This document shows, piece by piece, positions 2,863-12,965 of a stretch of DNA of 22,853 bases. Source of the stretch: a virus; IMG/VR virus record IMGVR_UViG_3300017959_000027, positions 1 through 22,853 of that record; one strand, written 5' to 3'. The stretch's first letter is position 1, and every line of letters starts with the position of its first letter. The notes below the pieces were generated by a model that saw only the letters and a list, made by a program, of their open reading frames with translations, did not search any database and was not told where the DNA came from. A program made the position numbers and the translations under genes.

Positions 2863-4425
2863 TTGGAAGAGTTCCAGAGTCAAGAAACTCCAAATAGGGG
2901 GTTGACTAAAGTTGGTGATGCGCGCGGTGTCGATCTCGTGCCCATCCTCTTCGTCAACGGCAAGCGTCGCGGGTTGCGGATCCGTGGCAGCGCGGCGGTG
3001 AGCAACCCGGTGCGGCGGAGGCGACGCAATCCGGCCCAGATGATCCCGCTCACGCACCAAGGCGTCCGCGATCTTCGACCGGGCGCGAGCGTGCGCAAGC
3101 GCAAGGGATCGCGGTGGGGGCGACGCAATCCGGCCCGCCGTAAGCGTCGCCAGCCGGCCGCACTTGCCCGCTATTGGGCCAAGCACGGCACCCGCACCCG
3201 GCGGCGCCACCGCATGCCCAAGGGGCTGAGGGACTACTGGGCGAAGAAGCACGGCAGCAAGACCCGCCGCCGCCATCGGCGCCGGCTGAAGAGCAATCCA
3301 TCCCGCAGGAGACACGCAATGGCCAAGGGGTCGAAGAAGCGAAGCGCCGCCATGAAGCGGTACTGGAGGGCCCGCAAGCGCGCCGGCAAGGTGGGCGCGT
3401 TGGGCCGCACCAAGCGTCGGCGTGCGCGCCGCACCGGCTCGAAGCGCCGGGGACGCGCCCGGAAGGTGTACCACGCGCGGAAGTCCCGGCGGCGGCGCAG
3501 GCGCACGGTTCACACCATGGTGCATGGCGTACGTGTGACCCGACGCAGCCAGCGGCGCCGCAAGGGGCGTCGCGCCACCAAGCGGATGTCCTCGCGGCGG
3601 ATGCACATGCTGCTCGGCCCGGAGGCCGCCACCGTCCGGATGAACCCCGGACGCCGGCGCCGGAAGCGGCGTCGGTCGCGCCATAGCGGCTACACTGTGC
3701 GTCGCAGGCGTCGGCATCACCGCCGCTCACACCGGTCGCATCGCCGGAGGTCCTACCGGCGCTACCGCCGGAACCCCGGCATTGGGGACATCTTCACCGA
3801 GCTGAAGCGGGTCATCCCGGTCGCGATCTCGTTCGTGGCCAACCGGATGGTCGTGAACAAGTTCGGCCCGATGCTTCCAGTCGTGTCCTCGCTGGGCACG
3901 CTGCAGGGCCCCGTGCTGTCCGTGGGCTCTCTGCTGCTGACCAACTTCGCCACCAAGAAGGTGGGCGCGCTGGCCAAGCATCGCGAGGCGGCCATGATGG
4001 GCGCCGGGTTCCAGGTCCTGGCCTCGCTGTGGACCGCGTTCGCTCCGGCCAGCATCCAATCGGCGGTCGGCGACTACGTCAACATGGGCGACTACGTGGC
4101 CGTGGGCGCTGCCCCGCCGCTGAACGAGCGCATCACCATGTCCGACTACGTGGCGGTGGGCGCCGACGGCGTGGAGCAGGAGCTCGGCATGGGCGTGGAG
4201 GAGGAACTGGGCGTCGACGAGGAGCTCGGGAACGTGCTGCTGGGCGGCTTGCCGGGCCCTACCAGCGGCTCCATGGCCATGATGAAGCCGGTGCCATCCC
4301 AGGCGTTCATCCAGCCGATTCCCGCAAGGAGCTTCACGAAGGGCATCCCTGGCGTGACGCCAGCGTTTGATGCTTCTGCGGATCTGTACGCGGGCATCTT
4401 CGGCAAGTTCGGCGGCGGCGGCTGA
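2863..4425 (+). CDS. Arg-rich DNA-condensing core protein with hydrophobic and acidic C-terminal part (520 residues)
   Basis: Residues about 50-305 are extremely Arg/Lys-rich, with repeated RRNP motifs (RRRRRNPAQ, GRRNPARRK, YRRNPG) and repeated basic modules headed by an aromatic pair (ARYWAKHGTRTRRRHR near 102, RDYWAKKHGSKTRRRHR near 123, KRYWRARKRAGK near 165). This resembles protamine or adenovirus-core-like DNA condensers in composition. Residues about 315-400 are hydrophobic or amphipathic (VIPVAISFVANRMVVNKFG; LSVGSLLLTNFATKK). Then comes GDYVNMGDYVAVG, echoed by MSDYVAVGADG, and an acidic Glu/Gly tail. The start is uncertain: TTG at 2863, TTG at 2902 and GTG at 2938 are in frame, and no ATG precedes the basic region. 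I infer that it packs the genome and contacts the virion membrane or shell. Confidence 0.75.
   Translation: MEEFQSQETPNRGLTKVGDARGVDLVPILFVNGKRRGLRIRGSAAVSNPVRRRRRNPAQMIPLTHQGVRDLRPGASVRKRKGSRWGRRNPARRKRRQPAALARYWAKHGTRTRRRHRMPKGLRDYWAKKHGSKTRRRHRRRLKSNPSRRRHAMAKGSKKRSAAMKRYWRARKRAGKVGALGRTKRRRARRTGSKRRGRARKVYHARKSRRRRRRTVHTMVHGVRVTRRSQRRRKGRRATKRMSSRRMHMLLGPEAATVRMNPGRRRRKRRRSRHSGYTVRRRRRHHRRSHRSHRRRSYRRYRRNPGIGDIFTELKRVIPVAISFVANRMVVNKFGPMLPVVSSLGTLQGPVLSVGSLLLTNFATKKVGALAKHREAAMMGAGFQVLASLWTAFAPASIQSAVGDYVNMGDYVAVGAAPPLNERITMSDYVAVGADGVEQELGMGVEEELGVDEELGNVLLGGLPGPTSGSMAMMKPVPSQAFIQPIPARSFTKGIPGVTPAFDASADLYAGIFGKFGGGG
3021..3136 (+). repeat. 17-base direct repeat encoding the RRNPA motif
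   Basis: GCGACGCAATCCGGCCC occurs at 3021-3037 and again at 3120-3136, 99 bases (33 codons) apart in the same frame. Both copies encode Arg-Arg-Asn-Pro-Ala. Identity at the nucleotide level suggests recent internal duplication or slippage within the Arg-rich gene. Confidence 0.7.
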
Positions 4426-4557: not shown

Positions 4558-5133
4558 ATGCCTCGTCTCCACGGCTACCGTGAGCGGCTCCATCAGCCGC
4601 TCTGGGATACCCTGGTGCGCTCCACGGGCGCCCCGGCCACCCCCATCGTGAACAGCACCAAGCTGTTCGGCAACGCCAACATCGGCAACCTGGCGCTGAC
4701 CAACCTCCAGACCGCCGGCCAACTCGCGTCGGATCAGACCTACGTGATCCTGGCCCTGCGCTGCTTCATGTTCTTCGACGGGCCGAACCGTCGGGACAAC
4801 TACTTGAACGTGACATCGCAGCTGTTCTGGACGCTGGTCGTCGGCACCAAGCCGATGTTCCAGGCGCCGTGCTGGTACTACCCGGCGGGCGGCGGCGTGT
4901 GGGGCTTCGACTCCACCGCGTCGATCTTCTCGCACGGCACCCCGGAGCAGGCGTCGATCCTGAAGCTCGCGAGACCGATCATCGTGCCCGTCCGGCAGAA
5001 CTTCGCCGCCCAGGCGGACTTCTTCGCGATCGGTACGACGAGCGCCCTCAACGGCCTCAACGCCGCCGATCCGGACGACATCCTGAACATACTTTTTATG
5101 TTGGATGGTCTTCAGACGAGGGACGTTCAGTAA
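4558..5133 (+). CDS. Candidate major capsid protein (single jelly-roll-like), 191 residues
   Basis: The ATG at 4558 follows AAAGGAAC at a suitable distance. The sequence alternates in a beta-rich pattern with many aromatics: TYVILALRCFMFFDG (about 61-75), LFWTLVVGTKPMF, APCWYYPAGGGVWGFD (about 103-118), PIIVPVRQNFAAQADFFAIG (about 140-160) and a terminal LDGLQTRDVQ. There is no membrane helix and no enzyme motif. Compact size, beta content, lack of a signal peptide, its own regulatory gap and its place in a virion-protein block make it the best capsid candidate. Membrane-containing viruses of the P23-77/SH1 type use two short adjacent single-jelly-roll capsid proteins, which this pair resembles in layout. 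The fold assignment is my inference; a spike or vertex protein is the alternative. Confidence 0.6.
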   Translation: MPRLHGYRERLHQPLWDTLVRSTGAPATPIVNSTKLFGNANIGNLALTNLQTAGQLASDQTYVILALRCFMFFDGPNRRDNYLNVTSQLFWTLVVGTKPMFQAPCWYYPAGGGVWGFDSTASIFSHGTPEQASILKLARPIIVPVRQNFAAQADFFAIGTTSALNGLNAADPDDILNILFMLDGLQTRDVQ

Positions 5134-5297: not shown

Positions 5298-5930
5298 ATG
5301 CCACAGCAACTGGACCCTGGAGCCGCCGCCGCCCTACGATCCCACAAGGGCGCCATCATGGCGCTCCAGAACACCGTCAACCAGCTCATCGCGCAGGTCA
5401 ACGCCCTGCAGACGAAGCCGGACACGGTCTGGGACGAGATCAACAAGATCCCGGGTAGATGGATCGAGTCCACGCTCTCGGGCGAGGTGACGTTCACCAT
5501 CTCCGATCTGGGCAAGCGATCCACGCCGGTCATCATCACGGTATCGCAGGATGGTCCGTTCATCCAGACGCACTACCCTCTGGTGCTCTGGTTTCCCAGC
5601 GCGCCCGACAACGCCACCAACTTCGGTTTCTGGCGCCCGGTTTCGACCTTTCCCCTGCCGACACAGGTCGTGAGCACCGACATCATCGATCTGCAGTACG
5701 AGATCGTGGACGGCGGCTCGCAGCGGCAGTTCCAGAACGCGCCACGCGGCCCCCTCTTCTCGAGGCCGGACAACGTCGTGCCCCTGCCCTCACCGGTGCA
5801 GTGGGCGCCCAACGCCACCTTGAACTTCGTGCCGATCTACCAAGCCATCACCTTCAATGGCTCGCCGGTTCCACCGACGGTGGGCACGCTCCACGTCGAC
5901 TTCCCCGGCTTCCGCATCGTGAACCTCTGA
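5298..5930 (+). CDS. Candidate second capsid or spike protein with N-terminal coiled coil, 210 residues
   Basis: The ATG at 5298 has AAGGGAG upstream; the longer frame to 5226 begins at TTG and is unlikely. Residues about 10-40 are helical with a heptad-like pattern (IMALQNTVNQLIAQVNALQ), suggesting oligomerisation. The rest is beta-rich: GEVTFTISDLGKR, TPVIITVSQDGPF, PLVLWFPSAPDN, IIDLQYEIVDGGS and a last strand GTLHVDFPGFRIVNL. A helical stalk followed by a beta domain would suit a trimeric spike or penton protein, or the second of two capsid proteins. No membrane helix. The stop overlaps the next start by one base. Confidence 0.6.
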   Translation: MPQQLDPGAAAALRSHKGAIMALQNTVNQLIAQVNALQTKPDTVWDEINKIPGRWIESTLSGEVTFTISDLGKRSTPVIITVSQDGPFIQTHYPLVLWFPSAPDNATNFGFWRPVSTFPLPTQVVSTDIIDLQYEIVDGGSQRQFQNAPRGPLFSRPDNVVPLPSPVQWAPNATLNFVPIYQAITFNGSPVPPTVGTLHVDFPGFRIVNL

Positions 5931-6466
5931 TGACGTACATGTCGCCACGCGACTTCGCTGCATGGCAGCGCGCGCACGGGCTCACCCCCTACAGGCGTCG
6001 CGGAGCCATGGGCGATGTCGCGGCGGATGTCACACCGACCGATCTGGTCGCCCAGGTCAATCGGTTCGGTCCAGGTGCGCCATCGGCCTATCAATTCGTT
6101 ACCACGCCGTTCACCGCGCCGGTGGCCGTCCTGGGCATCACGCTGCTACCGATTAGCATCGGCCTTGCCACCACGGCCCTGACGATCTACCAGCGGCGAG
6201 CGACCGATGCGTACAATCAATTCCACGATGCGGGATCCGAACAGGCCATCGCCGACGCAAATGCGGGATTTGCCGACCCGGTTGGCTTCGTGACTTCCCA
6301 TCTTGGACAGGTCACCCAGACGCTCCAGGCCTTCGCTGACTCTCTCGGGATCCCGGCCGCCGTGAGCGGCTCGACCGCCAGTCCCGAGGCGGGACTTTCC
6401 ACTGGCACGCTGATGCTGATTGGCGGGATCCTAGCGGTATGGTGGATCATGGAGCGCGAGCAATGA
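5930..6466 (+). CDS. 178-residue membrane protein with MTY leader and MGD motif
   Basis: The ATG shares its first base with the previous stop. The leader MTYMSPRDFAAWQRAHG continues through TPYRRRGAMGDVAADV, so basic residues precede MGD. A hydrophobic segment follows at about 65-88 (VAVLGITLLPISIGLATTAL), then a helical Ala/Gln-rich part, and a C-terminal segment GTLMLIGGILAVWWIM ending EREQ. It probably spans the membrane twice. It is translationally coupled to the next gene (ATGA). A virion membrane role is inferred from the leader and position. Confidence 0.7.
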   Translation: MTYMSPRDFAAWQRAHGLTPYRRRGAMGDVAADVTPTDLVAQVNRFGPGAPSAYQFVTTPFTAPVAVLGITLLPISIGLATTALTIYQRRATDAYNQFHDAGSEQAIADANAGFADPVGFVTSHLGQVTQTLQAFADSLGIPAAVSGSTASPEAGLSTGTLMLIGGILAVWWIMEREQ

Positions 6467-7065
6467 CCGCCGCCATCACCACCCAAGAGGTCCAGAAGGC
6501 CGCCGCTGAGCTCGCCACGATGCGAAGCAGCTTGGCCTCGTGGCTCAAATACCGAGCGCTCAACGATCAGGTCACGGCCGGCACTGCCAAGGTGCGCAAG
6601 CCTTTGGCCTATGCGCAGCGTGTGGTGGCGCAGCGCGACATGGCCATCGAGCAGGACTTGGCCACCAAGCTGTCAGTGCTCCTGGCGGCGCTCATGCCCG
6701 GACAGACGCTCCCCGCCGCCGATCTGTCGGTCAATCCCGCCGGCGCGGTGCAGTTGGCGCAGATCGCGCTGGCTGGCCCCTCTATGCTTTCGAGCCCGTC
6801 GCCGACCGGCGGCATCTTCGGTGCGGGTGGGCACCCATGGCTGTGGCCGGTGCTCATCGTCGGCGGGCTCCTTTTGGTGGCCACGACCGCTATCACGAGC
6901 GCGGCGGACGTGGCCAAGGATCAGGAAGAGAAGGCGTGCATCGAGTCCGGCGCCTGCACGGACTACGGGTTCTGGCTGAAGGCGGGCGGCGTCCTGGTAC
7001 TGGCGTGGTTCGCGTGGGAGAAGCTCGGCGTCAAGCACGCACTGGAAAAGAAAGGGAGGTCGTGA
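6463..7065 (+). CDS. 200-residue two-helix membrane protein
   Basis: It starts at ATG 6463, overlapping the previous TGA by 4 bases. Unlike its neighbours it lacks the M-S-Y leader. The N-terminal half is helical and soluble-looking (MTAAITTQEVQKAAAELATM; LATKLSVLLAALMPGQTLP). The C-terminal half has two hydrophobic helices, PWLWPVLIVGGLLLVATTA (about 124-142) and AGGVLVLAWFAWEKLG (about 173-188), with a short Cys-containing loop between them (ACIESGACTDYG). It ends in a basic tail, HALEKKGRS. Function unknown. The 24-bp inverted repeat begins 3 bases after its stop. Confidence 0.7.
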   Translation: MTAAITTQEVQKAAAELATMRSSLASWLKYRALNDQVTAGTAKVRKPLAYAQRVVAQRDMAIEQDLATKLSVLLAALMPGQTLPAADLSVNPAGAVQLAQIALAGPSMLSSPSPTGGIFGAGGHPWLWPVLIVGGLLLVATTAITSAADVAKDQEEKACIESGACTDYGFWLKAGGVLVLAWFAWEKLGVKHALEKKGRS

Positions 7066-7067
7066 TC

Positions 7068-7194
7068 GATCCCGCCTGAGGTCGCTCGTCGATGCAAGTC
7101 GGCGTGACGAGAGCGCCGTGGTCTCCTTTCCCACGTCGAACCTCAAACCCCGGAAAAGGCGTCGACCCAGCGACGGGCGACCTCAGGCGGGATC
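7068..7194. repeat. 24-bp inverted repeat with 79-base loop; possible structured RNA
   Basis: The left arm 7068-7091 and right arm 7171-7194 are complementary over 24 bases with a single T/G discrepancy, which would be a G-U pair in RNA. The loop (7092-7170) can form three short helices of its own: GGCGT 7101-7105 with GCGCC 7113-7117, GTGG 7118-7121 with CCAC 7131-7134, and GTCGA 7135-7139 with TCGAC 7162-7166. The result is a multi-branched, cloverleaf-like shape on a long base helix. It fills the gap between two membrane-protein genes. The right arm ends 15 bases before the next ATG, whose ribosome site is poor. Confidence 0.75.
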
Positions 7195-7209
7195 CCACGA
7201 AAGCACACC

Positions 7210-7539
7210 ATGAGCTACCAGCGTTATCGCAAGCGTCTCCCATTGCAGCCCATGGGCGATGTGGTCGGCACCATCGGGACGGTGCTCGACGTCGCCAGCG
7301 ATCCGGCCATGCCCGAGATCGTCTGTCGCATCCAGCAGCTCCAAGCCATCGACCGAGGCCAACCAGTGGGCGTCTGCGCCGAGACGCCGCCGGGCATCGG
7401 GATGCCCTGGATGCAGAACGTCCTGCCCGTGCTGCGCGGCTACGTCTACGCTCAGCAGAACAAGTGGGTATATCCGGTGGCCGTGCTCGCCGCCATCGGC
7501 ATCCCTATGTGGATCGGCTACGAACTGGGGAGGAAGTGA
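7210..7539 (+). CDS. 109-residue small membrane protein with MSY leader and MGD motif
   Basis: The leader MSYQRYRKRLPLQPMGDVVG is a compact, clear example of the shared signature. A region with two cysteines follows (EIVCRIQQLQ; GVCAETPPG), then a C-terminal hydrophobic helix (WVYPVAVLAAIGIPMWIGY) and the end ELGRK. The ATG at 7210 is preceded only by CGAAAG as a weak ribosome site, immediately downstream of the long inverted repeat, so translation could be influenced by that structure. Likely virion membrane protein by context. Confidence 0.7.
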   Translation: MSYQRYRKRLPLQPMGDVVGTIGTVLDVASDPAMPEIVCRIQQLQAIDRGQPVGVCAETPPGIGMPWMQNVLPVLRGYVYAQQNKWVYPVAVLAAIGIPMWIGYELGRK

Positions 7540-7541
7540 CC

Positions 7542-7883
7542 ATGAAGACCTCAACACTCTTGCTTCTCGGAGCTGCTGCTGCTGGCTACTACTTCTACAA
7601 GAAGAACGCGGCTTCACAGACGGCGCCGGCAGCGGCCTCAACCGCAGCGGTGACCGCGACCACGCCCGCCTCCTCGGGCGATGATGCGTCACCCGAAGAT
7701 ATCGCTGCGGCGACTGATGCCTCCCAGGTCGGGGCCAACGCCATCGTCCCAGCCGTGGTCATCGTGCAACCCGATGACAGTTACGACTCGTACGGGCCCT
7801 GGGGATGGGGACCGTCCTGGGGGAGTTTCGGGGGCGGTGGACGTCATCATGGCGGTGGCGGGCACCACGGGGGTCACCACTGA
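7542..7883 (+). CDS. 113-residue protein with N-terminal anchor and Gly/His-rich tail
   Basis: The ATG at 7542 has a good ribosome site (GGGGAGGAAG). The N-terminus is a hydrophobic helix (TSTLLLLGAAAAGYYFYKK), the reverse of the C-terminal anchors nearby. It could be an uncleaved signal anchor. A low-complexity Ala/Thr/Ser linker follows (to about residue 50), then VPAVVIVQPDDSYDSYGPWG and a tail very rich in Gly and His (GGGGRHHGGGGHHGGHH). The tail could bind divalent metal. It is presumably displayed on one side of the membrane. The stop overlaps the next start by one base. Confidence 0.65.
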   Translation: MKTSTLLLLGAAAAGYYFYKKNAASQTAPAAASTAAVTATTPASSGDDASPEDIAAATDASQVGANAIVPAVVIVQPDDSYDSYGPWGWGPSWGSFGGGGRHHGGGGHHGGHH

Positions 7884-8488
7884 TGTCGTACATGCGAGAT
7901 CCGGACCGCGCGACACGCGGCGTGCGGGCGATCGCATCAGCTGACAACTCGCCCAGGCGACAGGCACACCAGTTGCGGCGGATCCATGCGACGCAGTCCA
8001 GGGATCGCGCCATGGCGAGCATCGCGCGCGGGGCGCTGGGACTGGTGGCCATGGACCCAGGGGCAGCAGGTGGGGGCGTTGCCAGCAGTACTCCATCCGG
8101 GACGTACAAGATCGGCTTTACGCCCGGCGCGACGTACACCTCGTTCACCACATCGACGAACATCACCCCGCAGCCGCCGCCCGTGTACACCGTGTCGGGC
8201 GACGGCCTGGTTCCGCACCCGCAGCCGATCGATCCGCGCGCACTCTTGCCACCACCGACTCCTGCACCGCCATCGGCTTCCGCGGATGCAGGAGGCGGGG
8301 GTGGCGTGAGCAATGTCGGAGTGGCCATGGGCCCGGCGTCTTCGCCGATCCCTCCGATACCCCCGCTTGACATAGGCGAACCGCCCGTGACGGCGCCAGC
8401 GAGTGACAACACGATGCGGAACGTTCTTATCGCGGGAGGCGCCGCAGTCGCTGCCTATTTCTTGTTCTTTCGCAAGAGGTCGTCGTGA
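7883..8488 (+). CDS. 201-residue Pro/Ser-rich protein with MSY leader and C-terminal anchor
   Basis: The ATG overlaps the preceding TGA by one base. The leader MSYMRDPDRATRGVRAIA is followed by a long basic helix and GALGLVAMDPGAAGGG, where AMDP stands in the place of MGD. The middle is a Pro/Gly/Thr/Ser-rich low-complexity stalk (for example PQPPPVYTVSGDG). The C-terminus is one hydrophobic helix, NVLIAGGAAVAAYFLFF, with the basic end RKRSS. This stalk-plus-anchor form fits a virion surface or membrane protein. It overlaps the next gene by 4 bases. Confidence 0.65.
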   Translation: MSYMRDPDRATRGVRAIASADNSPRRQAHQLRRIHATQSRDRAMASIARGALGLVAMDPGAAGGGVASSTPSGTYKIGFTPGATYTSFTTSTNITPQPPPVYTVSGDGLVPHPQPIDPRALLPPPTPAPPSASADAGGGGGVSNVGVAMGPASSPIPPIPPLDIGEPPVTAPASDNTMRNVLIAGGAAVAAYFLFFRKRSS

Positions 8489-8730
8489 CCTACGCGATGC
8501 GCAAGACACCGCGATCTTCGTTCATGCCCCGCCGCGACAGCATGGGTGACGACGCGACAGCCACCATCGTGTCGTCCGGCGTCATGTCGCCGCCCATCGT
8601 AACGCCAATCGTGCCGACCGTGGCCATGCCGCCGATCCCAGTTCCTGCGCCGGTCGGCTCGGGCCTGAGCCAGTACGTGCTTTGGGGCGGACTGGCCTAT
8701 CTGGCATACTGGCTCTGGTCCAAGGAGTGA
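8485..8730 (+). CDS. 81-residue small membrane protein with MTY leader and MGDD motif
   Basis: The start is GTG at 8485, overlapping the previous TGA (GTGA). The leader MTYAMRKTPRSSFMPRRDSM is basic and runs into GDDATATIV, one of the best matches to the shared signature. A Pro/Val-rich linker follows. The C-terminal segment SQYVLWGGLAYLAYWLW ends with SKE. No other motif is seen. Its last bases (AAGGAG at 8721-8726) serve as ribosome site for the next gene. Confidence 0.65.
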   Translation: MTYAMRKTPRSSFMPRRDSMGDDATATIVSSGVMSPPIVTPIVPTVAMPPIPVPAPVGSGLSQYVLWGGLAYLAYWLWSKE

Positions 8731-8733
8731 CCC

Positions 8734-9180
8734 ATGTCCTACTTCAAGCGCCTCCCGCCTTCCGCCCCTCGCCCCGCAGTCCGCAGACGTGGTCTTCTGG
8801 GCATGGGCGACTTCTCGGACTCCACCCAGTGCTCCGAGATCCCGCTGGGCGATCCATACCGCAAGCCCGGCAACTACTGCGCGACGCCCGATGGCGGGTT
8901 GACCACGTTCAACGCTGACGGGTCGACCTATCGCCAGCCGGGCTACGCGGTGGATCCGGATCCCGCCCACCCCGTCGGGACGACAGTGACTTCAGGTTCG
9001 ACATCGAGTTCGGACTCCGGCGTGACCGGTGTGCTCTCCAGCATCGCCAAGGCGTTCGGCGCTGGCTTGGCGCCGCAACCCACGGTGGTTGTGCCGCAGT
9101 CTGGAATGTCCACCGGCACGATGCTCGCCCTGGCCGGCGGCGCCGTGCTGCTCGTGGTCCTTTTGTCGCGGCGGAGTTGA
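8734..9180 (+). CDS. 148-residue small membrane protein with MSY leader and MGD motif
   Basis: The ATG at 8734 follows AAGGAG at a 7-base spacing. The leader begins MSYFKRLPPSAPRPAVRRRG and reaches GMGDFSDSTQCSEI. A soluble part with two cysteines follows (QCSEIPLGD; GNYCATPDG), then a Ser/Thr-rich stretch, a short amphipathic helix (GVLSSIAKAFGAGL) and a C-terminal membrane helix TMLALAGGAVLLVVLL ending SRRS. The membrane helix resembles that of 9192-9458 (TMLLIGG...). A virion membrane role is inferred. Confidence 0.7.
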   Translation: MSYFKRLPPSAPRPAVRRRGLLGMGDFSDSTQCSEIPLGDPYRKPGNYCATPDGGLTTFNADGSTYRQPGYAVDPDPAHPVGTTVTSGSTSSSDSGVTGVLSSIAKAFGAGLAPQPTVVVPQSGMSTGTMLALAGGAVLLVVLLSRRS

Positions 9181-9191
9181 AGGAGGGCCTC

Positions 9192-9458
9192 ATGGCGTAC
9201 ATGCGCAACGACCTCATCAGCCGCACCGGGTACTCGGGCGTGGGCGGATGGCTCGATACGCTCATCAGTGATGCGGGCTCCGTGCTGCAGATCTATGGCT
9301 CGACCCAGCAAGCCAAGGGCGCGGCGGCGCAGAGTAGCCAGGACTTACAGGCGGCGCTGGCAGCGCAGCAGCAGGGATCCAGCACGACCACCATGCTGCT
9401 CATCGGGGGGCTGGCGGTGGGGGCGTTCCTGCTGCTGAGGCGGAAGAAGAAGGAATAG
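9192..9458 (+). CDS. 88-residue small membrane protein with MAY leader
   Basis: The ATG at 9192 has AAGGAGGG upstream; the in-frame start at 9177 overlaps that site and the previous stop, so it is rejected. The leader MAYMRNDLISRTGYSGVGG is a divergent form of the M-x-Y-x-R signature without MGD. The middle is Ala/Gln-rich and helical (QDLQAALAAQQQG). The C-terminus is TTMLLIGGLAVGAFLLL followed by RRKKKE. It is the last gene of the left structural block; a minus-strand gene ends 4 bases beyond its stop. Confidence 0.7.
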   Translation: MAYMRNDLISRTGYSGVGGWLDTLISDAGSVLQIYGSTQQAKGAAAQSSQDLQAALAAQQQGSSTTTMLLIGGLAVGAFLLLRRKKKE

Positions 9459-9462
9459 CGCT

Positions 9463-10015: not shown

Positions 10016-10552
10016 ATGTCGCGAGGCCTGCACATCGACCTATCCGACCCCCGCGTACAGCAGATGCTGGGCCCTCTTGCCAGTGGAAAGCGCGAGGTGG
10101 TGCAGCTGGCCGGGGATGCGCCGGACCCCACTGGCCTGACCGACCACACCGGCCTCCAGTCCACCCATAGCCTCACGGCAGGCAAGCAGGAGGTGGTGGT
10201 GGTGTTTGGGGACCTGCTGCTCACCCTGGATGTCTACGCTTTGCCCGGAGAGCCAATGCGGGTCCAGATCATCTGCCCTCGGTGCCACAAGCACTCGACC
10301 ATCCGGGGGGATCGGAAAAAGATCGAGTACGAGGCGAGGTCCTTGAACCCGCAGGCACGCCGGATCCATCTCTTGGCGAGTTCGGTTGCCGAGTTGGCGG
10401 CGATCTCCATGTTCGGTCGGCTGTCCGTCGAGCCCTTCGAATGCGCCTGGGAACTCGGCGACGCCAAGCATGTGGCCGGCGCGCTGCACACCGGGGCATC
10501 GCTTTGCCGGTTGCGGCTGGTCATAGAGGACAACCGTGCCAGGGAGGTCTGA
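10016..10552 (+). CDS. 178-residue protein with a CxxC metal-site-like motif
   Basis: It begins 4 bases after the previous stop. The N-terminal half has beta patterning (KQEVVVVFGDLLLTLDVYAL). VQIICPRCHKHSTIRGDRKK near residue 85 carries CPRC-x-KH, which looks like half of a zinc knuckle. A matching second CxxC is not seen; single cysteines occur later (FECAWE, SLCRLRL). The C-terminal part is strand-rich. Function unknown. It could be a DNA-binding or structural protein. Confidence 0.65.
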   Translation: MSRGLHIDLSDPRVQQMLGPLASGKREVVQLAGDAPDPTGLTDHTGLQSTHSLTAGKQEVVVVFGDLLLTLDVYALPGEPMRVQIICPRCHKHSTIRGDRKKIEYEARSLNPQARRIHLLASSVAELAAISMFGRLSVEPFECAWELGDAKHVAGALHTGASLCRLRLVIEDNRAREV

Positions 10553-10556
10553 GGCC

Positions 10557-12353
10557 ATGCCATCGCACGAACGAGAGCTCGAAGACTACATCCTGCAGGG
10601 GATGGCCCACGCGATCTGGAGTCACGCCTTCATCCAGTGGGCTGCCAACGTCGAGCCACCGCCCGAGCTTCCGCCGAACTCGGACTGGACTGATGTCACG
10701 CCCCCGACCCCGCCGGGCGCGATGGCGGCCGCCAAGGACTTCGCGCACGGGATCAGGGAGTTCAACAATCTGCGTCTGTATCCCATGGCCCAGATGTTCC
10801 TGGCGACGCGTCGCTACGCGCAACCACGCCGGAGTTCCGTTCGGACCACCGAAGCAGATCAGGCGTTCCAGTTCGGCGAAGAGGTGGCAATGTCGTGCCT
10901 GGGCACGCTCGAGGTCCCCGAGATCGCGCAGTACAAGCTCCCCCAGATGAAGGCGATGCTCGACGATGATGGGCAGGCGCTGAGTTGGGACGAGGGCTGG
11001 ACCTGGGCGGGACGACCCGAGCCGACGGACAACCCGCAGTGGCCCGCCTCGTCGGTACAAAGCCTGATGTTCGACAGCCACAGGTACACCGACAAGCAGG
11101 CCAAACGATGGGCGCAGGATCACGGGTTCAAGTACGGGAGCTTTGAGACCAGCGCCAACTATCACCGACTTCGCCAGTTCGATCCCGGCTACGGACAGCC
11201 CTGCCGGACCATCGAGTTCGGTCACGGGATCAAGGCCATCGTGTGCGCCACGCGCAATCCTTCCGGCCAACCGCTCGGCATCGAAATTCTGGTGATGGAA
11301 GACGATCCGAAGATCCAGACTAGATTGGCGCGGATGCTGAAGCAGATGCTTACGAACCCACACATGATCTTTGCCGACAACGTGGGAGCCGCAATCGCCG
11401 ATCTGGAGGTCCACGAGTTCGGACTTGTCATCAGCGATCTCTCGGTGTTGGGTAGCCGTAGCGGCCTTGATCTCTTCGAGCACATCAAGACACACTATCC
11501 GCAACTCGTCGATCATTTCGTCTTCTTCACCGACGACGAGCGGGCTCAGCGGGCTCATTATCGCTACCTGCAGAAGGGCGGCGCGACCACGGAAGATCTG
11601 AAGCGCGTGATCCGCGCGCCCACTCCTGGACAGGCAACCCGAGCCGCGACGCAGATGCCACTCGACGCGTTCGCGAGCACCGTGCTGGCACATGCTCAGC
11701 GCATCCGGCGCACCGATGATCCCCAGGGTCGCGCGATCGGCCGATATGGTCATAAGGTGTTTGTCGCCGCGCTGTGGCGCGATCTGAGCCATGATCCCCG
11801 GATCCAAGCGATGGGGCTGTCAGGGTTCAAGCGCTCTCTATGGGAGTCGCATCGTGCGGGACTGCTCGAGCTCGCGCGTGCGGACCTCGTCGGTGCCATG
11901 AATGACACGGAGGTGGTCCAGTCCGAGATCGCGCAAGGCAACGCGACGTTTCATTTTGTCGTGGATCCGAAGTCGCTTCCCGCCGCAGTCACTCCCGTGC
12001 CTGCCTTCGTCGCGCCGCGTCTCGACGACTTTTCACAGATCGTGCTTCAGGCGCTCCCCGGGATTCGACAGCACATAGGCGCCTCCGGTCGCCCCGCAGG
12101 ACGGTTCGGTGACGACAAGGTCTTCATCGCGGCCGTGTGGCGGCAGATCAAGGGCGACCCGCGCCTCGGAGGCATGACCATGGACCAGTTCAAGCGGAAT
12201 CTCATACGCGCGCAACGTAATAGAATGCTGAATCTGGCACGCGCCGATCTGGTCGGCGCGATGGATGGTGCTGAGGTCGCACAGTCCGAGATCGAGGATC
12301 TCGGCGCAAGTTTCCACTTCGTCCTGGACCCCAACGCCCGCAGCTCTTATTGA
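10557..12353 (+). CDS. Multidomain protein: phage-type domain, response-regulator receiver domain and duplicated C-terminal domain (598 residues)
   Basis: The ATG at 10557 has AGGGAGG 9 bases upstream. Residues 1-150 are an unrecognised helical region. Residues about 165-230 (SVQSLMFDSHRYTDKQAKRW, then HGFKYG, NYHRLRQFDP, IEFGHGIKAIVC) resemble a module I know from phage and prohead-protease-associated proteins. Residues about 242-350 form a receiver domain: acidic cluster E248-D249-D250, phosphoacceptor candidate D294 in VISDL, T325 in FFTDD and K340 in LQKGG, in the correct order and spacing. Two related domains of about 100 residues follow (about 371-470 and 491-591), each with GR(Y/F)G..KVF(V/I)AA(L/V)W, FKR and LARADLVGAM ending in FHFV. 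These look helical/winged-helix-like. A regulator or sensor role is inferred. Confidence 0.75.
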   Translation: MPSHERELEDYILQGMAHAIWSHAFIQWAANVEPPPELPPNSDWTDVTPPTPPGAMAAAKDFAHGIREFNNLRLYPMAQMFLATRRYAQPRRSSVRTTEADQAFQFGEEVAMSCLGTLEVPEIAQYKLPQMKAMLDDDGQALSWDEGWTWAGRPEPTDNPQWPASSVQSLMFDSHRYTDKQAKRWAQDHGFKYGSFETSANYHRLRQFDPGYGQPCRTIEFGHGIKAIVCATRNPSGQPLGIEILVMEDDPKIQTRLARMLKQMLTNPHMIFADNVGAAIADLEVHEFGLVISDLSVLGSRSGLDLFEHIKTHYPQLVDHFVFFTDDERAQRAHYRYLQKGGATTEDLKRVIRAPTPGQATRAATQMPLDAFASTVLAHAQRIRRTDDPQGRAIGRYGHKVFVAALWRDLSHDPRIQAMGLSGFKRSLWESHRAGLLELARADLVGAMNDTEVVQSEIAQGNATFHFVVDPKSLPAAVTPVPAFVAPRLDDFSQIVLQALPGIRQHIGASGRPAGRFGDDKVFIAAVWRQIKGDPRLGGMTMDQFKRNLIRAQRNRMLNLARADLVGAMDGAEVAQSEIEDLGASFHFVLDPNARSSY

Positions 12354-12356
12354 GGC

Positions 12357-12965
12357 ATGGTGTACACACGCGTCAAAAGGTTCGCCCTCGGCGCTACGCC
12401 GGTGGACGCCGAGCCACCACAGGTCGGGCGTCCGCAGCCGCCGATCTATCCGCTGCAGATCGGCGCACACGGGGGATGGCTCGAAGTACGTGCCACGTCG
12501 GCGGATGGTTCTTGTGGTGTCCATGGCTACCCGTGCAAACATCCCGGGGTGGACGTTGCTGGGTCCGCCGGGACCTCCGTCGTGGCCCCAGAGAGCGGCA
12601 CCGTTGTTGCCGTAGGCAGCGGCTTGGCTGCACCATTCGTCGGCTACGGGCCCTGGTTCGTCATCATCCAGGGCGATGACAGCGGAAAGTTCCATCTCCT
12701 GGCGCACCTTGAGCCTGCGACGGCTTCGATGGCTCCGATGGGGGCGCAGGTTGTGGCAGGGGACCAAGTGGGCGTGACGAGCTCGGCCAACCACACCCAC
12801 TGGGAAGTGCGGGATAAGCCTGTGCCAGACTTCGCGGCGGGCGAGGACAACTTCTCGAACAACACAGACCCGCTGGGCTGGCTGTCAGGTGCCTCGATGG
12901 GGCTCGTCGGGACTGCGCTCCTGGTCGGCGGCGCCGCCCTGTTCCTGTGGCTGCTGTTCAGCTAG
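12357..12965 (+). CDS. M23-family peptidoglycan endopeptidase with C-terminal membrane anchor (202 residues)
   Basis: M23 zinc-peptidase motifs are visible: H62-P-G-V-D66 (zinc ligands), H117 in FHLLAHL and H146-T-H148 in NHTHWEV. These enzymes cut peptide cross-links in bacterial cell walls. The N-terminus MVYTRVKRFALG matches the M-x-Y-x-R leader of the virion membrane proteins at the left, and the C-terminus is a hydrophobic helix (VGTALLVGGAALFLWLLF). Together these suggest a lytic enzyme anchored in the virion membrane for entry. Lysis of the host from inside is the alternative. It follows the receiver-domain gene by 3 bases and overlaps the convergent 12958-13176 gene by 8. Confidence 0.85.
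   Translation: MVYTRVKRFALGATPVDAEPPQVGRPQPPIYPLQIGAHGGWLEVRATSADGSCGVHGYPCKHPGVDVAGSAGTSVVAPESGTVVAVGSGLAAPFVGYGPWFVIIQGDDSGKFHLLAHLEPATASMAPMGAQVVAGDQVGVTSSANHTHWEVRDKPVPDFAAGEDNFSNNTDPLGWLSGASMGLVGTALLVGGAALFLWLLFS

Follow-up and report, generated by a model that had tools for sequence, protein, structure and literature searches.

Analysis of a 22.9 kb IMG/VR fragment (here called the window, i.e. the whole stretch of 22,853 nucleotides that was analysed) revealed a genuine receiver (REC) domain embedded in a viral multidomain protein, P0001. Sequence comparison with related phage contigs indicates that this REC is one exchangeable cassette in a variable gene slot. With a probability of roughly 0.42 we regard P0001 as a phage orphan response-regulator-like adaptor, which would be gated by host phosphodonors and act via a tandem C-terminal domain (C-rep).

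Table 1. Features of P0001 and its neighbours in the window, and module order of the protein in the same slot of relatives
Feature	Residues	Position	Strand	Evidence, remark or module order
P0001, multidomain protein with embedded receiver	598 aa	10557..12353	+	ORF call
Conserved upstream gene		10016..10552	+	borders the variable slot on one side
M23 peptidase with C-terminal hydrophobic tail		12357..12965	+	other edge of the slot
N-terminal helical domain (N)	1-148	10557..11000	+	common to all homologues
B module (B), SVQS...HGFKYG...RTIEFGHGIKA	166-232	11052..11252	+	small alpha/beta unit
RNP linker motif	233-237	11253..11267	+	at module border
REC domain	242-355 (about)	11280..11621	+	PF00072, AlphaFold2, Foldseek PDB
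Acidic (Mg-binding) pair	E248/D249	11298..11303	+	
Predicted phospho-acceptor	D294	11436..11438	+	
Conserved T/S	T325	11529..11531	+	
Conserved Lys	K340	11574..11576	+	15 residues past T325
C-rep 1		11661..11975	+	winged-helix-like
C-rep 2		12021..12338	+	same domain as C-rep 1; AlphaFold2 pLDDT 96.9
Window architecture				N-B-REC-Crep-Crep
L009 architecture				N-REC-Crep-Crep
L005 architecture				N-REC-insert-Crep-Crep
L004 architecture				N-REC-insert-Crep (L005 order with single C-rep)
L006 architecture				N-REC-Crep-B (modules reordered)
L007 architecture				N-B-REC; REC C-terminal, without C-rep
L002 architecture				N-linker-Crep; without REC
L003 architecture				N-Crep; without REC

The initial annotation had listed six receiver landmarks, E248/D249/D250, D294, T325 and K340, and all six were found at these positions; E248/D249 form the canonical acidic pair and D250 is the customary third residue of the EDD motif. 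A search of whole P0001 with PF00072 gave E=2.7e-7 and 31.2 bits, which passed the curated cut-off of 30.2, and the isolated REC gave E=1.1e-8 and 35.6 bits. Because the HMM alignment on P0001 spans residues 244-317 only, the half containing T325 and K340 rests on AlphaFold2, Foldseek and family conservation. AlphaFold2 with an eight-sequence alignment predicted a (beta-alpha)5 fold with the strands beta1 to beta5 at residues 243-247, 269-273, 290-293, 321-324 and 337-338, and the helices alpha1 to alpha5 at residues 251-264, 276-285, 303-313, 329-333 (a short alpha4 of 5 residues) and 345-352. In this model the pocket residues directly follow the strands 243-247, 290-293, 321-324 and 337-338, with the acidic residues at pocket-forming strand ends, as would be expected of a receiver. 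Foldseek searches of the PDB returned receivers and response regulators over the whole domain, among them the FleR REC (7w9h; TMt 0.73, 2.9 A) and CheY (3rvr; TMt 0.71, 2.6 A). Profile search and predicted structure thus both bear out the receiver proposed earlier. For the whole protein the model had a mean pLDDT of 74.8 and a pTM of 0.32, so that the mutual placement of the domains is uninformative. A weak PADLOC match to PDC-M60B (E=6e-4, residues 242-297) corresponded merely to the REC region.

Five distinct RECs, including that of the window, were found in one gene slot of related 75-86 kb phage contigs (G004, a near-copy of G003, was left out of this count), which supports the viral coding of the receiver. 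The residues ED[D/E], D, S/T and K are kept in all five, with spacings of 46-47 (E-D), 31-32 (D-T) and 15-16 (T-K). In CheY the T-K spacing is 22, and the E-D and D-T spacings are close to the 46 and 31 of the P0001 REC. The shared T-K deficit of ~7 residues shortens alpha4 and speaks for one origin of the RECs, from which we infer that the domain was captured once by the virus group. A receiver in which any one of five conserved residues is missing is termed a pseudo-receiver (PMC12632262); this identity was ruled out, since acidic pair, D, T/S and K are complete in each of the five. Between the RECs of the close pair L004 and L005 we counted 10 synonymous differences and 1 non-synonymous difference (about 79 and 257 sites, respectively), and by this codon comparison the REC is under strong purifying selection in this pair; among more distant pairs the synonymous sites are almost saturated and say nothing about selection. 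Together, the intact pocket and the purifying selection, both read from sequence, strongly support receiver chemistry as the predicted activity of the P0001 REC. Exactly one REC of the P0001 family was detected per REC-bearing relative in a search with the family alignment, which was done because a genome search with PF00072 had overlooked the RECs of G003 and G004 owing to a lossy first filter.

With whole P0001 as query no match was obtained in IMG/VR, GenBank phages or plasmids. Relatives were reached solely via a conserved 191-aa protein encoded at 4558-5133 of the window, with eight contigs of 55-86 kb (G001-G008; 75-86 kb, G007 55 kb) obtained in this way. In seven of the eight the corresponding slot is occupied by a homologue of P0001, and the counterpart of gene 10016-10552 lies upstream of it. 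A homologue of the M23 peptidase follows directly in L002-L005 and lies farther downstream in L006; it was not found within the stretches of L007 and L009 that were examined. In the window the ORF of P0001 is continuous from the ATG at 10557 to the stop at 12353, the ATG lies 9 nt downstream of a GGGAGG Shine-Dalgarno sequence (10542-10547), and the intergenic gaps flanking the gene are 4 nt and 3 nt; with gaps of <=4 nt to both neighbours, co-transcription is likely.

The module shuffling among relatives (Table 1) rules out P0001 as a fixed new architecture. DNA similarity between the window and L002 ends at 10552 and returns at 12432, which delimits a variable island with conserved flanks; identity between the two amounts to 71% for the N domain, 83-86% for the neighbouring proteins and 99% for the 191-aa protein. 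The nearest relatives by flanking genes, L002 and L003, have no REC, so a recent gain or loss of the domain at this position is probable.

Additional observations were made on the virus group. By eye, the 191-aa protein (63-99% identity across relatives) looks like a capsid candidate, and a larger protein resembling it is encoded at 33969-34715 (-) of G001. The window region 5930-9460, upstream of P0001, contains a run of small proteins, each with a terminal hydrophobic stretch and a basic tail, which suggests membrane-anchored, perhaps virion, proteins. Terminase_6 had no match in seven relatives, and the Pfam and PHROG matches listed for 88 ORFs of G008 lack terminase, portal and HK97 capsid families, although they include an integrase, lysins and a tail-spike-like protein; the group may possibly consist of non-tailed or very divergent phages. 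G001 encodes a DUF6094 methyltransferase fused with a SNF2/ResIII-type helicase at 67608-71051 (-) and, by eye, a Mom-like protein at 24184-24750 (+). Contig L061 (JADYYO010000342.1, 80,077 bp) of a Thermomicrobiales MAG encodes an N-domain homologue without REC and a 191-aa protein with 63% identity. A Thermomicrobiales host was considered from this contig and dropped, as contig and MAG may be mis-binned.

Matches of the N-terminal domain are confined to the P0001 virus group. The B module turned up at no locus other than the window, L006 and L007, apart from a partial match in the prohead protease-capsid (MCP) fusions L059 and L060 (38% over 48 aa). This weak resemblance to part of such fusions lends weak support to the previous description of the SVQS segment as a phage-type module. 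Where the N domain meets the variable cassettes, an N-P dipeptide, mostly as RNP, is present in every homologue, and P235 is invariant in the 8-member alignment; RNP occurred 6 times, compared with 0.55 in shuffles. RNP (or SNP/QNP) recurs in a very basic protein encoded at 2863-4425 of the window and in the same-slot proteins of L008 and L061. Such motifs could mark sites of processing, sorting or recombination.

Alignment of the two C-terminal copies showed 49% identity, in agreement with the duplication noted initially. The domain has the motif RADLV-AMD-SE-FHFV and was detected at 25 IMG/VR loci, some of them on contigs of P0001 relatives already counted. Very different phage proteins carry it (loci including L014, L017, L018, L020-L024, L026-L029 and L032-L034): it stands alone in L014 and L032 and is fused to helicase-like (L017), hydrolase-like (L020) and other proteins, all named by eye. 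Searches of C-rep members against Pfam gave no convincing family, and no Pfam output domain of a known family (OmpR, NarL, NtrC, LytTR types) was found in P0001. An AlphaFold2 model of C-rep from a 25-sequence alignment reached a pLDDT of 96.9. Its fold matches were mostly winged-helix/HTH proteins, led by PadR, Fur/PerR, TcpK, H1 and forkhead winged-helix proteins, none of them significant singly (best E=0.39 in the PDB and 0.14 among viral structures in BFVD). On this model C-rep is probably a winged-helix-like, previously undescribed domain. A search of 201 genomes from the phylum to which the L061 MAG belongs, run without a positive control, did not recover it.

The absence of a neighbouring kinase had also been pointed out, and no histidine kinase was found in eight relatives. 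Neither HATPase_c (PF02518, 12 records) nor HisKA (PF00512, 8 records) matched in the relatives, and both detected positive controls in cellular genomes. Since the genome profile search had missed two PF00072 RECs, 88 ORFs of the REC-bearing relative G008 (78.8 kb) were also scanned against all of Pfam; Response_reg was listed, and no kinase or Hpt. The same contig carries a gene for a dual-specificity phosphatase. As no viral kinase was found, phosphorylation of the REC, if any, would need the host or small phosphodonors; the protein may plug into host phosphorelays, as first proposed. Two-component response regulators have a cognate histidine kinase encoded nearby; none was found for P0001, and the window is a fragment, so that the protein can be called an orphan at most.

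In the adaptor reading, an intact classical receiver, captured once by the virus group, would serve as a swappable cassette in a protein made with the late genes (late operon). Because the virus group yielded no kinase, the REC would most likely take its phosphate from a host kinase or a small phosphodonor, and once phosphorylated it would alter nucleic-acid or partner binding by the linked tandem C-rep during infection. The REC fold, the pocket intact in five RECs, the selection in L004/L005, the single REC per genome, the lack of a detected kinase and the C-rep model, with winged-helix proteins leading its fold matches, all favour this reading. Four of the five RECs are joined to C-rep, which speaks for an output that acts on nucleic acid or on a partner; DNA binding by C-rep and a regulatory outcome would be further parts of this reading. 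Against it stand the REC without C-rep in L007 and the C-rep without REC in L002 and L003, by which the coupling is not obligate, the lack of a significant single fold match for C-rep, and the shortening of alpha4, which is part of the usual receiver output surface. A more elaborate version, a late-made and possibly virion-delivered regulator whose REC would read a host phosphorelay or acetyl-phosphate and switch tandem winged helices, is rather unlikely; in it the virus itself would bring a regulator gated by host state and assembled from exchangeable sensor and effector cassettes.

The position of the gene, next to a conserved gene and the membrane-tailed M23 peptidase and after membrane-tailed proteins, suits a virion part equally well. 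P0001 may thus be a virion or assembly component in which REC, B and C-rep are exchanged interaction modules and receiver chemistry is incidental or a conformational switch. We consider this possible, if somewhat improbable: fibre-like repeat proteins (by eye) lie near the slot in L061, L062 and L009, the B module is weakly shared with prohead protease-capsid fusions, and the gene, with its modules shuffled among relatives, diverges faster than its neighbours, but pure scaffolding would need neither the full set of phosphotransfer residues nor strong purifying selection on the REC. An intact pocket without a cognate kinase would also fit a decoy or sink, in which the REC would bind a host histidine kinase or Hpt, or draw phosphate from it, and rewire host signalling with no transcriptional output of its own. 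The REC of L007, a C-terminal domain with no output module, agrees with such a function, and a phage protein, PIT4, is reported to perturb host two-component systems (PMC10714779). Yet C-rep is fused in most REC-bearing relatives and the late-type genomic position is unusual for a host-takeover gene, which makes a decoy unlikely. That the REC is a degenerate relic used only for its fold is very unlikely; the HMM alignment ending at residue 317, the short T-K spacing and the KP proline lost from four of the five RECs point that way, but the five defining residues are present in every one of them and a single non-synonymous change stands against ten synonymous ones in L004/L005.

Receivers that keep a complete phosphorylation pocket yet lack a kinase, within a modular viral protein, would offer a concrete case in which to test whether viruses read the two-component signalling of their hosts. 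Solving C-rep, spread as it is over many phage proteins, would annotate many phage genes of unassigned function.

Response regulators are listed among viral auxiliary genes in community studies (PMC9636769), and a search of open-licence articles for phage- or virus-encoded response regulators and histidine kinases returned no paper. A divergent receiver of jumbo phages, cREC, is tied to NAD/ADP-ribose (conflict) systems (PMC7824862). Like the P0001 RECs, cREC (PF20274) is a phage-encoded receiver-type domain with no histidine kinase partner; in contrast to cREC, the window genes that were scanned gave no NAD-processing family. Membership in cREC was ruled out, as PF00072 matches all five RECs (best 1.1e-8) and the cREC profile matches one of them weakly (E=0.0073). 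PHROG 731 and PHROG 5982, phage families of unassigned function with receiver-like regions, resemble P0001 in the REC region only (E=0.0011 and 3.3e-4, respectively). By fold comparison the topology of C-rep is similar to that of winged-helix proteins (PadR/LmrR, Fur/PerR, TcpK, linker histone H1, forkhead), from which it differs by a helical stretch separating the last strands, the lack of a Pfam family and the lack of a significant single match. With classical receivers (PF00072; FleR, RcsB, FixJ, CheY) the P0001 REC shares the fold, the acidic pair, the Asp, T/S and K; it differs in its T-K spacing of 15-16, its short alpha4 and its internal position in a phage protein. In contrast to classical response regulators, no cognate kinase gene was found for P0001, and its REC is linked to C-rep in place of a known output domain. 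The initial annotation knew of no described viral protein with this domain order, which is consistent with everything searched; its novelty does not extend to phage receivers, nor is the architecture fixed, since the REC is swappable. Viral and phage receivers as such are already known (PHROG 731 and 5982; jumbo-phage cREC), and it is the domain order of P0001 and its C-rep that appear undescribed.
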